Source of the DNA: a virus
Strand: one strand, 5' to 3'
IMG/VR virus record: IMGVR_UViG_3300021964_000669
Coordinates: 1-21,221 of that record
DNA length: 21,221 nt
Within the stretch, counting starts at the first letter, position 1. The number at the start of each line of letters is the position of its first letter. The notes beneath the pieces were generated by a model. That model was not told where the DNA came from. It ran no database searches and was given only the letters and a program-made list of their open reading frames with translations. The translations under genes were made by a program, and so were the position numbers. This document shows, piece by piece, positions 836 to 18,447 of this stretch.

Positions 836-1141
836 TTACTTTTTATTAATAAAGTCGTAGAATTTTTCAGCCGCTTCAAGAACTTGATCAATTCCAGGAA
901 CAGCTGGCATCTCTACCTTGTTCACAATTTCACCAGTCTTTTCATCACGTTTAGCAGATACTTCAAATCCGTTAAACTTTGATGCGTATTCAAACTCTGT
1001 GAATTGTTTTGCCATATCCAATACTTGTGTACGGATCTCGTAACCGTTCTTATTGAACTGTACTTTTGGCAGTGTTTCTTTAATTTGATTAGCTACTTGT
1101 TCGGCACCACGTTCGATACCTTCTCTAAATGCTTTAGACAT
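836..1141 (-). CDS. Conserved-looking 101-aa phage protein with NGYEIR...LDMAK motif
   Basis: Starts at ATG 1141-1139, 8 nt after an AAGGAG ribosome site; an in-frame ATG six bases upstream is too close to that site. The N-terminal third is amphipathic helix (AFREGIERGAEQVANQIKE). The middle has NGYEIRTQVLDMAKQFTEFE, a pattern I recall from short proteins of marine T4-like phages and cyanophages, and the C-terminus is a second helix. No signal peptide, no catalytic motif. It is the last gene of the leftward block but has its own promoter with two perfect inverted repeats, so it is probably controlled separately from the small genes upstream. Cytoplasmic; function unknown. Confidence 0.8.
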   Translation of the reverse strand: MSKAFREGIERGAEQVANQIKETLPKVQFNKNGYEIRTQVLDMAKQFTEFEYASKFNGFEVSAKRDEKTGEIVNKVEMPAVPGIDQVLEAAEKFYDFINKK

Positions 1142-1177
1142 CTTCATCTCTCCTTATGTGTATGTGTTTGTGTCTGA

Positions 1178-1260: not shown

Positions 1261-1308
1261 TTATTTGCCAAACCAATCGTCAGCTTCTTCTTGAGTATAA
1301 GGCCACAT
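1261..1308 (-). CDS. 15-aa microprotein MWPYTQEEADDWFGK
   Basis: Begins at ATG 1308-1306, overlapping the previous stop as TAATG, with a GGGGAGG ribosome site 9 nt upstream, and ends at TAA 1263-1261. The strong ribosome site and tight coupling are the main evidence that it is translated. The peptide is acidic and tryptophan-rich, with a YTQEEADDW core. I recall similar YTxEEAxW strings from short alphaproteobacterial proteins but cannot verify this. It is the last of five overlapping small genes. Function unknown. Confidence 0.55.
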   Translation of the reverse strand: MWPYTQEEADDWFGK

Positions 1309-1409
1309 TATAACATGCCTCCCCAGAATAAACCGTTCACAATCATCATTCCGCATAGGATTGATAACATGATACTGAATGGCACTAGTGCTTGGAAAAA
1401 ACTACGCAT
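1308..1409 (-). CDS. 33-aa small membrane protein
   Basis: ATG 1409-1407 overlaps the end of the DUF1127 gene, with AAGGGG 8 nt upstream; it ends at TAA 1310-1308. After a short MRSFFQ start, nearly all of it is hydrophobic (ALVPFSIMLSILCGMMIV, then GLFWGGML), fitting one membrane-spanning helix. A single-span microprotein between a DUF1127 protein and a 15-aa peptide, held in place by overlaps on both sides. Role unknown; a membrane regulator or a small lysis/superinfection protein are possibilities without direct support. Confidence 0.6.
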   Translation of the reverse strand: MRSFFQALVPFSIMLSILCGMMIVNGLFWGGML

Positions 1410-1644
1410 GGGCTTTCCCCTTCCAAGTTGCGTGTTGCTTACCTCTAAGGTAATGGTCGCCCGCTTCATAGTTTTCTTTTTTAATTAGTTCACGAACTGG
1501 TTCGTTAGCAATCCAGTAAATCTCTGAACGGCTAATTCCTAAGTCATTTAGTTCGTGGTCATTTAATGCGCTAAGTTCTTTAATAGTTCTTTTTGCTAAT
1601 TTTTGTTCAGGAGTCAATCCAAATAATCTTTTTAAACTAATCAT
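1402..1644 (-). CDS. DUF1127 (YjiS-like) small protein
   Basis: An 80-aa protein. Residues 20-47 match the DUF1127 signature: an amphipathic helix, LSALNDHELNDLGISRSEI, then aromatic residues. This domain is common in short alphaproteobacterial proteins; in Agrobacterium and Rhodobacter, members bind RNA and affect small-RNA turnover and phosphate or stress responses. The C-terminal extension is basic (HYLRGKQHATWKGKAHA), which would suit RNA binding. It starts inside the preceding 66-aa gene (8-nt overlap) with AGGAG 9 nt upstream. Its location in a phage suggests interference with host RNA metabolism or capture of a host regulator; that part is inference. Confidence 0.85.
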   Translation of the reverse strand: MISLKRLFGLTPEQKLAKRTIKELSALNDHELNDLGISRSEIYWIANEPVRELIKKENYEAGDHYLRGKQHATWKGKAHA

Positions 1645-1837
1645 TTTTATTTGCTCCTAACATTAGAGCCTTGGCTTCGTCGTAATAACCTTGACGAGCA
1701 AGTTCATTTGCGGCTCTGGCTCTACCTGCTGATTCTCCAAATGCTATTACACTTACGAATGCTACGTAGAGTGCTTTGCGAACTGCGTCGCAGAACTTAC
1801 ATGTGTAAGTCCAATATGTCTGTGCTAGTGTGCTCAT
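1637..1837 (-). CDS. 66-aa protein with RARAANELARxGYYDEAKALM motif, DUF1127-associated type
   Basis: ATG 1837-1835 overlaps the preceding stop (ATGA) and has GAGGAG upstream. The N-terminal half has a cysteine pair (CKFCD) and a hydrophobic stretch (ALYVAFVSVIAFGES). The C-terminal half is a helical motif, RARAANELARQGYYDEAKAL. I know the latter from short alphaproteobacterial proteins, often found near or fused to DUF1127 sequences. The stop lies inside the DUF1127 gene, so the two are translationally coupled. Exact function unknown; a partner of the DUF1127 protein is the simplest reading. Confidence 0.75.
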   Translation of the reverse strand: MSTLAQTYWTYTCKFCDAVRKALYVAFVSVIAFGESAGRARAANELARQGYYDEAKALMLGANKND

Positions 1838-2013
1838 TGTGTTACTCCTCTAATGGTTGGTATTTTTCCTGGTCGTGTTTTCATTTGGTAATAGGCGTCT
1901 TGCCATTGATCACCATATTCTAGTTTTGCCCAACGTATTAGATCAGAGTCGCTTGCTCTACTTTTGAACAAACGGTTCACCCAAGACATCAGACTGCTAT
2001 TACTGTTAGCCAT
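1834..2013 (-). CDS. 59-aa protein, first gene of the leftward microprotein block
   Basis: The start is ATG 2013-2011, preceded by AAGGAG 7 nt upstream. The reading frame stays open further to 2103, but that extension is GC-rich structured leader and has no ribosome site. The protein is small and helical, with a short basic amphipathic start (SWVNRLFKSRASDSDLIRWAKLEYG), a DQWQDAYYQM segment and a basic tail ending RGVTQ. The tryptophans and DSDLIRWAKLEYGDQW are reminiscent of the small-protein neighbours, but I do not recognise a family. Coupled to the next gene through ATGA. Confidence 0.7.
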   Translation of the reverse strand: MANSNSSLMSWVNRLFKSRASDSDLIRWAKLEYGDQWQDAYYQMKTRPGKIPTIRGVTQ

Positions 2014-2029: not shown

Positions 2030-2100
2030 TGTATGGATGCTTTGTGGTTAGCATGATACCCCGGAACTTCCCCGGCGGTGCAACTGCCTTTGGCAGTCGT
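2030..2100 (-). other. GC-rich structured 5' leader of the microprotein block
   Basis: This stretch is much richer in GC than its surroundings. In the leftward transcript it could form three consecutive hairpins: ACTGCC-AAA-GGCAGT (2097-2083), CCGG-loop-CCGG or GGAA-TTCC (2075-2061), and ATGCT-loop-AGCAT (2054-2037). The ribosome site of the 59-aa gene follows directly. It may be a structured leader or regulatory RNA; I do not match it to a named riboswitch. Confidence 0.35.
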
Positions 2101-2193
2101 CAATCACTTTTAAGGCATGGATAATGCCCTGGTCTATCCCAGTGTATGTGTGTGTCGATTGAGGATTTGTGAAAACCCTGCGCTTGACATCAG

Positions 2194-2202
2194 TATTTAC
2201 CA
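2194..2202 (-). promoter_or_regulatory. Possible leftward late-promoter box GGTAAATAC
   Basis: Read leftward this is GGTAAATAC, the same TAAATAC core found before many genes in the window. It lies about 180 nt upstream of the 59-aa gene, so a transcript from here would include the structured GC-rich leader. No good TTGACA/TATAAT pair was found for this block. Confidence 0.35.
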
Positions 2203-2216
2203 TGATAGGACAGTGA

Positions 2217-16915: not shown

Positions 16916-17335
16916 TTGGACAACATTAAAAAACATTTATACAAAGCACTCGGTTTCATCTGTGTAGGCTTAGCCTATATTGGATTTATTACACCGGGTA
17001 TACCATTTTCAATCTTTCTTGTTATAGCGGCTTGGGCATTTGCCAAAAGCAGTCCTAAAATGGAGGCATGGTTATATAATCACCCTTGGTTTGGCAAGTT
17101 TCTAACTAACTGGAACAAGAAGCGAGTATTTCCTACTAAAGGAAAATATGCGATGATTGCTGTAATGTCATCGACTCTAGCAATAACTTACTATACTACT
17201 GGAAACCTTAAAGCAGTACTATGGAGCGGAGGCTTTATGGCGCTAGTCGCTATATGGGCTTGGAGATATCCAGGCAGTGAAGAAGAACACGCTCGTAGAA
17301 TTAAACAAGGTGAAAGAGTAGCATGGCTGAAATAA
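16916..17335 (+). CDS. YbaN/DUF454-family inner-membrane protein
   Basis: A 139-aa membrane protein. TTG 16916 is chosen because AGGAG lies 6 nt upstream; GTG 16901 has no ribosome site. It matches the DUF454 layout: a first span (ALGFICVGLAYIGFITPGIPF), a second span (SIFLVIAAWAFAKSS), then the SPKMEAWLYNHPWFGKFLTNW motif. A further hydrophobic pair follows (YAMIAVMSSTLAITYY and VLWSGGFMALVAIWAW). Host YbaN proteins are inner-membrane proteins of unknown function; a phage copy is uncommon. The gene starts just after the PAAR gene and its end overlaps the next oxygenase-like gene. Confidence 0.85.
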   Translation: MDNIKKHLYKALGFICVGLAYIGFITPGIPFSIFLVIAAWAFAKSSPKMEAWLYNHPWFGKFLTNWNKKRVFPTKGKYAMIAVMSSTLAITYYTTGNLKAVLWSGGFMALVAIWAWRYPGSEEEHARRIKQGERVAWLK

Positions 17336-17958
17336 ATCACGAAGTAATACCTTTATTTTCAATTCCTTTATACAAAAGTCAACTAGCACCCCTTGACCCA
17401 CTTATGTTTCAAAAGTTATCTCGTCATGAGTGGGAAAAGAACGAAGGGTTCGTGACGCATGTAGAAACTGCTGAACGACATCTACTAGATAGACCAGAGT
17501 ATAAAGGACTTAAGAAATCAATACAAGAACATGTTGATCACTTTGCTTATGAAGTAATAGGTAGTCAGCGTGATATCAGTTGGGAAATAACAACTAGTTG
17601 GGTTAATAGATCAAACAAGGACGACTATCACACAAGTCATTGGCACAGTAACAGTTTAATCAGTGGTGTATTTTATATTAACACAAATCCAGATAGTGGT
17701 GCTATTGTATTCCATAAAGACAAAGATCATAAAAACTTATGGGGAGATACATTGCGTATTGACTGGGATAAAGAAACTGATTACAATACAGAAGCCGTTG
17801 GCATACTACCAAAAACAAACGAGATTTTAATGTTTCCTAGCATTTTAGCACATTCAGTATTAACAAACACTTCTAACGAAAGTAGATATAGTTTGGCATT
17901 CAATGTCTTTCCAAGAGGAATCTTTGGCAAGGGCGGAAACAGTGAATTGAGTTTATAA
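17323..17958 (+). CDS. Putative 2-oxoglutarate/Fe(II) oxygenase (TIGR02466-like)
   Basis: A 211-aa protein overlapping the end of the DUF454 gene. Motifs typical of the 2OG-FeII_Oxy_5 group are visible: HWHSNSLISGVFYIN (H106, H108), SGAIVFHKD, EILMFPSILAHSVLTN (H177) and SRYSLAFNVFPRG (R188). The usual H-x-D iron pair is replaced by H-x-H or H-x-N here, as in other members of this family from memory, so activity needs testing. Substrate unknown. It is the second oxygenase-type gene within 1.2 kb and shares a transcript with spike and membrane genes. Confidence 0.8.
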   Translation: MAEINHEVIPLFSIPLYKSQLAPLDPLMFQKLSRHEWEKNEGFVTHVETAERHLLDRPEYKGLKKSIQEHVDHFAYEVIGSQRDISWEITTSWVNRSNKDDYHTSHWHSNSLISGVFYINTNPDSGAIVFHKDKDHKNLWGDTLRIDWDKETDYNTEAVGILPKTNEILMFPSILAHSVLTNTSNESRYSLAFNVFPRGIFGKGGNSELSL

Positions 17959-18131
17959 TGTGGGAACTTTGGTGTAAAGCAATAGGGGAAAAAGCATATG
18001 AAGACAACCGTAGAGCTGACAGTGTGGCTATTATTAGGACTATCTGGATCCTGTTACATATTGCTACTTGTTTGGCCATTATACTTAATGCTATAGCCAA
18101 TCACGGCTGGAATCTAATATTTTTAGGTTGA
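17958..18131 (+). CDS. 57-aa single-span membrane protein
   Basis: ATG overlaps the preceding stop as TAATG. Layout: a short N-terminal cytoplasmic part (MWELWCKAIGEKAYEDNRRAD), one hydrophobic span (VAIIRTIWILLHIATCLAII), then a short tail. I recall small proteins with this MWELWCKA.GEKA opening in marine T4-like phages. Its TGA overlaps the TTGACA of the tmRNA promoter. Function unknown. Confidence 0.8.
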   Translation: MWELWCKAIGEKAYEDNRRADSVAIIRTIWILLHIATCLAIILNAIANHGWNLIFLG

Positions 18132-18157
18132 CAAAATTTAAAATAGATGCTTAAATA
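18128..18157 (+). promoter_or_regulatory. Promoter of the tmRNA gene (sigma70-like with overlapping late box)
   Basis: TTGACA (18128-18133), 17-nt spacer and TTAAAT (18151-18156). The late-type octamer CTTAAATA (18150-18157) overlaps the -10. Either would start transcription near 18163, just before the acceptor piece. The -35 overlaps the stop of the gene before it. Confidence 0.6.
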
Positions 18158-18163
18158 TACTTG

Positions 18164-18441
18164 TAACGTTGAAGCCAATCAACGACATTCTGGACCCGGG
18201 GGCGGTACCCGGCGACTCCACCATAAACACATCATGGTCCTAGATGAAGGAAATTGGTGTGTTTATGATGGGGTCGAAATAGGATCGACAGGTGTAATAG
18301 AGAACGTGGAGTTACCGGTAGGCGATGACCGTAAATCAAGCAACTTTATAGACGCAAACGATAATTTTGCTTCTGAGGATTTTGCCCTAGCGGCATAATC
18401 ACTCGGGGTGGGCAACCGGCCTAGCAACAGAAACGGTTGCG
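18164..18441 (+). ncRNA. ssrA: Permuted, two-piece transfer-messenger RNA (tmRNA)
   Basis: Rescues stalled ribosomes by tagging unfinished proteins. The gene is in circularly permuted order. The acceptor piece comes first: a 6-bp hairpin (18167-18184), a T arm CCGGG/CCCGG with a 7-nt loop (18196-18212), the acceptor strand CGACTCC (18213-18219) and ACCA (18220-18223). A 46-nt intervening segment (18224-18269) has ends pairing through ATAAACACA/TGTGTTTAT. The coding piece starts GGGGTCG (18270). GGGGTCG pairs with CGACTCC over 7 bp, keeping the G3-U pair that alanyl-tRNA synthetase reads. A D-loop-like GGATCGACAGG follows, then a resume codon GCA at 18354 and the tag ANDNFASEDFALAA ending in TAA at 18396-18398. 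The 3' end has a GCAACCG/CGGTTGC hairpin. The ANDN...AA tag is alphaproteobacterial in style. Exact 5' and 3' processing ends are estimated. Confidence 0.95.
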
Positions 18442-18447
18442 CTTTCC

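Follow-up and report, generated by a model that had tools for sequence, protein, structure and literature searches.

A structured leader RNA upstream of a conserved block of overlapping microprotein genes in marine phages

We analyzed a virus record of 21,221 bases from IMG/VR, the whole of which is called the window here. Its minus strand carries five overlapping tiny genes, which we confirm as real and as conserved in many marine phages. They are preceded by a structured leader RNA of about 120 nt (2036–2155, minus strand) that is described by a covariance model, R1, shows covariation and has no match in Rfam. We tentatively propose that the leader is a cis-acting operator RNA that is bound by a protein and sets the expression of a coupled microprotein operon.

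Results

Five overlapping genes form a conserved block

A preliminary description of this DNA had placed ORFs of 59, 66, 80, 33 and 15 amino acids at 1261–2013, overlapping by ATGA (4 nt), 8 nt, 8 nt and TAATG (1 nt), each with a ribosome site. Re-reading the sequence returned all five on the minus strand with the same coordinates and overlaps, as well as a purine-rich Shine–Dalgarno (SD) sequence upstream of every gene. Gene A (59 aa; 1834–2013), with the motif WAKxEYGxxWxxAYxxM, is the first gene of nearly all blocks and has the SD AAGGAG at 2021–2026. It is followed by gene C (66 aa; 1637–1837), which has a CxxC motif and the sequence GRARAAxELxRxGYxxEAKALM (the ARAA family), and by gene B (80 aa; 1402–1644), a DUF1127 domain with the conserved tail YEAGDHYxRGKxxATWKGKAHA. 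Gene E (33 aa; 1308–1409), for which relatives were found, encodes a one-span membrane microprotein ending in FWGGML, and gene F (15 aa; 1261–1308) encodes MWPYTQEEADDWFGK. The limits first given hold for these genes; the upstream end has to be moved to about 2155–2209, to include the leader and a promoter region.

The relatives discussed below are metagenomic contigs, many of them related to one another, and counts among them are not counts of independent events. In two related contigs (L002/L008 and L003/L005), all five genes are retained in the same order, the check on gene order that the preliminary description had suggested. Across 63 distinct blocks, adjacent genes overlap by 1–26 nt at most junctions, mostly with spacings of −1, −4, −8 or −26. 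The order and overlaps of the block genes are thus far beyond chance.

The 33- and 15-aa genes, whose standing was said to depend on their presence in relatives, are not missing there. A WPYTxEE micro-ORF no longer than 35 aa, with the family consensus MWPYTxEEADxxxGK, occurs in 68 of 82 blocks (55 distinct DNA sequences; none in shuffled blocks), a count that is biased by selection on the peptide; 46 of these ORFs have the same TAATG overlap. The two related contigs named above encode MSHWPYTDEEADFLNGKLALDKD and MWPYTDEEADFLNGK. Codon differences in the 15-mer, taken at positions outside the motif, fall mainly at the third position (619, versus 363 and 294 at the first and second). The set of ORFs upstream of the 15-mer, mostly the one-span gene, gave 2272 third-position differences versus 1662 and 683; because some further short ORFs ahead of the 15-mer are included, these counts support coding but do not stand purely for the membrane family. 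The FWGG codons of gene E contain the SD of the 15-mer, GGGGAGG. Two genes that most gene finders drop are therefore conserved parts of marine phage genomes.

The alphaproteobacterial flavor noted in the preliminary description is echoed by DUF1127 matches on alphaproteobacterial plasmids and by a permuted, alphaproteobacterial-type tmRNA in the window (18117–18443, plus strand; RF01849, 127 bits; RF04321, 130 bits; tag ANDNFASEDFALAA). The plus strand of the window also encodes a 2OG-Fe(II) oxygenase (17323–17958; PHROG 81) and a phage exonuclease (8318–9028; PHROG 298). Next to the block lies a 103-aa gene (836–1147, minus strand) with its own ACACACATACACAC...GGAG start, which is kept downstream of the block in six other contigs (L008, L005, L042, L043, L048 and L079).

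Properties of the block proteins

The DUF1127 assignment of the 80-aa product is sound: it scored 43.5 bits with PF06568 against a cut-off of 23.3, and proteins of other blocks scored 37.5 and 34.7 bits. About 14% arginine has been quoted as a hallmark of DUF1127 proteins (PMC12501420), a typical property and not part of the Pfam definition; the window protein contains 6.25% and its relatives 7–9%. In the AF2 model, the DUF1127 core is confident (about 90; helices 12–25, 29–34 and 39–46). The tail, modeled below 50 yet conserved, is probably disordered. A fold search with this model against the PDB gave nothing significant. The 59-, 66- and 33-aa products had no Pfam family above cut-off (the 15-mer is too short for such a search), and the gene C product had no match in Pfam, PHROG, PDB sequences or plasmids. 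Profile comparison suggests that C and some DUF1127 proteins may have a common N-terminal TYCxFC module. The AF2 model of the gene A product, of low confidence (pLDDT 69), has two helices.

The literature on DUF1127 is divided between RNA binding and an association with PhoR or the membrane. CcaF1 acts on its own transcript together with RNase E (PMC10253847). In Agrobacterium and E. coli, the sensor kinase PhoR is a binding partner of the DUF1127 proteins (PMC12501420). YjiS of Salmonella associates with the membrane (PMC11707872) and, as PMC12501420 reviews, there is no evidence that it interacts with RNA. In open-licence full-text literature, no paper named DUF1127 together with the terms virus and marine. 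Whatever the leader does, a role of the phage DUF1127 protein in redirecting host RNA turnover, as the preliminary description had suggested, or in modulating a sensor kinase such as PhoR, appears somewhat unlikely to us. The RNA binding of CcaF1 (PMC10253847), the binding of PhoR (PMC12501420), the inner-membrane location of YjiS (PMC11707872) and the one-span membrane protein within the block all speak for it; against it, DUF3563 replaces DUF1127 in many blocks, and a role of the phage copies would be one by analogy.

A covarying leader RNA precedes gene A

The DNA 5′ of the first gene is far more conserved than the block genes, and holds a leader that the preliminary description had missed. 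R1 scored the window leader at 125.3 bits (E = 4e-33), the window being one of the model's 45 seeds. From 5′ to 3′ on the minus strand, the leader comprises five hairpins: P1 (2129–2142; CUGG-GAUAGA-CCAG), closing a G[NAWAGA]C hexaloop; P2 (2114–2128; GGCAU-UAUCC-AUGCC), with a variable loop; P3 (2081–2099; CGACUGCC-AAA-GGCAGUUG), of 8 bp; P4 (2058–2079; ACCGCCGG-GGAAGUU-CCGGGGU), which is nearly invariant; and P5 (2037–2054; AUGCU..AGCAU), which adjoins the SD and overlaps a possible further stem, PJ. All 60 unique elements compared have in common P1 (loop GAWAGA), P2, P3 (CC-AAA-GG), an almost invariant P4 and an invariant P5, which is kept in 60 of 60.

Three of the helices are supported by compensation, one of the marks of a structured cis-regulatory RNA. 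In P1 and P3, compensatory changes occur at fixed positions; pairs 2–4 of P1 are kept in 60/60 elements through such changes, and P3 has 98.1% of its cells paired with two-sided changes at 4 pairs. P2, whose count of 60/60 is biased because it was located by best fit, is 92.8% paired in an alignment-based count, with two-sided changes at 3 of 4 pairs. With all helices taken together, 98.0% of cells are paired and the covariation score is 0.340, versus 0.143 after shuffling; sliding the structure along the alignment left at most 46% paired. Covariation neither supports nor contradicts P4 and P5, since their pairs never vary in the strict-core set, where the P4 stem is invariant. A kissing loop between P1 and P2 was ruled out, as the two loops do not covary. 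The covariance models of Rfam 15 gave only chance matches far below their cut-offs, even at E = 10, so a known riboswitch or other Rfam RNA is likewise ruled out. The window also had no match to the glutamine riboswitch.

RNAalifold predicts PJ (GYRA/UUGC or UCAU) as a closing stem, which would turn P3 and P4 into a three-way junction. The leader could on this basis be a riboswitch-type sensor, in which PJ competes with P5 beside the SD and a ligand decides which of them forms. We regard this as improbable. The nearly invariant core is aptamer-like, PJ cells are 98.9% paired with two-sided changes at one pair, PJ and P5 have bases in common in both sequence types, and in the common type the P5 loop UUUCCU could, to judge by complementarity, pair with AGGAGA of the SD. 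On the other hand, PJ is statistically and thermodynamically weak: shuffled columns pair nearly as well (59 versus 54, and 60 versus 59), its mean probability is 0.11, and it is broken in some modular leaders (L135 and L139). The window-type leader does not have the anti-SD loop, and a variable number of hairpins and the replacement of P4 by a G[NAAAGA]C hairpin would be unusual for an aptamer.

Upstream of the leader lies a degenerate T4-type late promoter, GGTAAATA (2194–2201, minus strand), beside a sigma70-like −10 element, TATCAT (2202–2207, minus strand). The exact T4-type late promoter TATAAATA is present in 61 of 74 unique loci at a nearly constant position upstream of P1, and in loci read by eye it directly follows a sigma70-like −35/−10 pair. 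Because these promoter elements sit there, the mRNA would be expected to start just upstream of the leader. Such an arrangement also suits a passive or host-factor element, for example a 5′ stabilizer, an RNase-resistant structure or a ribosome/Hfq-like site that gives high expression of the block: 5′ hairpins adjoin a dual promoter, loops are A-rich and SDs are strong. We nonetheless consider that explanation unlikely, because conservation of the exact loop and core across very different phages, and a single use per genome at one operon only, exceed the needs of a generic stabilizer.

The leader is modular and occurs once per record

Searching with a 22-base probe of the leader retrieved 12 viral stretches; with a looser probe the number rose to 102, which have the strict core. 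About 100 further viral stretches carry a modular form with one to four G[NAWAGA]C-loop hairpins (scans for such forms added 16 and 89 stretches, of which a few are spurious), in which repeated units of UGACG, a stem and a G[NAAAGA]C loop take the place of P3 and P4. The loop motif is present in 91 of 91 unique leaders, which hold 120 G[NAWAGA]C hairpins in total, versus 0.3 expected after shuffling and 0.9 from background. Most leaders have a single such hairpin; where it recurs, the loop is identical and the stems differ. One loop presented one to four times on different stems is the pattern expected of a module that is recognized by a protein.

Repetition of the loop also raises the idea that the leader acts additionally or mainly in trans, as a 5′-UTR-derived sRNA or sponge titrating a host RNA-binding protein. 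CsrB/RsmZ-type sponges have a layout similar to that of the leaders with repeated loops. We think this very improbable, given that most leaders have just one such hairpin, that the leader is single-copy and tightly linked in cis to the block, and that no U-run of the intrinsic-terminator type follows it.

Every record contained one leader, including records of up to 316 kb, which rules out multi-copy antitermination sites of the put type. Second, weak covariance-model matches downstream of the block were traced to the ACACACATACACAC with which the leader of the next gene starts. The window leader had no match among 50,697 phage records, and scans of phage records found no leader in isolated phages. 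A host-borne origin of the RNA was also rejected, one bacterial-genome scan having given just a viral-looking contig and a chance match in Herbidospora. The viral-looking contig, inside a Flavobacteriales MAG (L106; PAND01000020.1), carries the leader and the block, with a relative of gene A as the downstream gene; it is probably a mis-binned viral contig.

Some variants depart further from the common form. Five contigs of up to 222 kb (L131, L133, L134, L128 and L141) have a strongly degenerate leader that the covariance model misses; in L128, L131 and L141, all that is left is P2 with two hairpins of the G[NAWAGA]C type. The modular leaders of another phage group (L222, L237, L274 and L292) have an extra 5′ hairpin ahead of P1, for example GAGC-GACCUCA-GCUC, whose C-rich loop is conserved.

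Leader and block are linked through genes A and C

A leader-blind search with the 59-aa family returned 157 viral relatives, and the leader lay directly upstream in 71 of the 76 kept loci tested; those of the remaining loci that were read have visibly degenerate versions. When blocks were anchored on the 3′ end of the leader, blind to gene A, 117 distinct blocks contained A in 115 cases and C (ARAA) in 116, together with DUF1127 (69), DUF3563 (41), both (3), the tail module (62) and WPYT (84), compared with 0–2 in random stretches of the same loci (about 1/117 for A/C); the family HMMs were built from the sequences under study, so that close relatives are in part counted by construction, and the false-positive rate is bounded by the control stretches. 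A few modular leaders have no gene A, and the blocks there open with a DUF1127, DUF3563 or ARAA gene.

DUF3563 stands in for DUF1127 in about a third of blocks. Among 121 blocks, 62 had DUF1127 alone, 42 DUF3563 alone, 1 both and 16 neither (Fisher p = 4e-18, an optimistic value because related phages are not independent). Gene 2 of L033 scored 35 bits with PF12086 (DUF3563), above the gathering threshold of 26.9, and the L061 version scored 22.8 bits, below it; DUF3563 is absent from the window. DUF1127 is thus not what marks the operon, given that DUF3563 replaces it whereas A and C are near-constant; the constant signature is the 66-aa C family. The microproteins are modular: depending on the phage, the tail (YEPGDHYMRGKxVAFWKGHA, with variants) is fused either to DUF1127 or to ARAA. 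A cupredoxin-like gene (pseudoazurin/plastocyanin type) was seen by eye in or beside the block in two contigs (L061, gene 4; L024, gene 5).

Discussion

In these uncultivated marine phages of the T4 type, the block may represent a single transcription unit. Its mRNA would start at a promoter region that combines early-like with late-like elements. Specific hairpins would form at the 5′ end of this mRNA and make up a cis-acting leader; behind it come an SD and the overlapping genes, whose translation is likely to be coupled. We suggest, tentatively, that this operator is bound by a protein that recognizes the fixed P3/P4 core together with the G[NAWAGA]C hairpins, and that binding determines how the whole block is translated or how stable it is; the small proteins would therefore be made at a fixed ratio and time. 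Both the direction of such regulation and an action of the proteins on host regulators are points that we infer.

The putative binder would be a block product, with the 66-aa C and the 59-aa A as near-constant partners, or a host RNA-binding factor. Autoregulation is attractive because A and C are such constant partners and because CcaF1 is known to target the transcript that encodes it (PMC10253847). Yet the proteins are not arginine-rich and the leader core outlasts their divergence, which makes a host factor almost as probable as a block protein. That the core is more conserved than the proteins counts against the operator proposal, as it would also fit a host factor or a small ligand.

With greater reserve, we raise the possibility that leader and block together make up one ribonucleoprotein control device of marine phages, jumbo phages included, consisting of a new modular class of regulatory RNA with variable G[NAWAGA]C hairpins and a likewise new class of combinatorial microprotein operon that shuffles DUF1127, DUF3563, ARAA and tail modules. 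It is rare to find structured RNAs that many phages have in common, that are linked to one operon and that Rfam lacks. As the RNA and its partner proteins are defined and many natural variants exist, the binder can be sought directly. The block also places in a phage setting the question whether RNA or signaling proteins are the targets of DUF1127 proteins.

The 80-aa protein resembles known DUF1127 proteins (PF06568; CcaF1, the Agrobacterium SDPs and YjiS) in having the domain above the curated cut-off; it differs from them in its added conserved tail, its 6% arginine and the placement of its gene in an overlapping operon, where it is exchangeable with DUF3563. In the ccaF1-CcsR operon of Rhodobacter sphaeroides, a DUF1127 gene is likewise co-transcribed with structured RNA, and CcaF1 acts on that RNA (PMC10253847); the sRNAs there lie downstream of the gene, whereas the phage RNA is a 5′ leader, its hairpins are unrelated, and the five genes behind it are probably coupled. 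A DUF1127 gene preceded by a regulated leader is also known from Sinorhizobium meliloti (duf1127-1; PMC12218461), but that attenuator uses a translated uORF and C-rich segments, none of which was identified in the hairpin-based phage leader.

A cultured counterpart is Methylophilales phage Melnitz, a marine OM43 phage and thus a laboratory-accessible relative (L122; MZ577098.1), whose genes 44–46, in a block at 2058–2644, have the order A′-C-DUF1127. Like the window phage, Melnitz encodes a tmRNA (PMC9004378). Unlike the window, it has a match to the glutamine riboswitch and none to the leader, its A′ is very divergent, and E and F are not recognizable. Phage translational operators and boxB- or put-type hairpins are short, with a fixed purine-rich loop that is read by a protein or by polymerase. 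The phage leader differs from these in its loop, in its variable number of hairpins and in its single site per genome, and its binder is putative.
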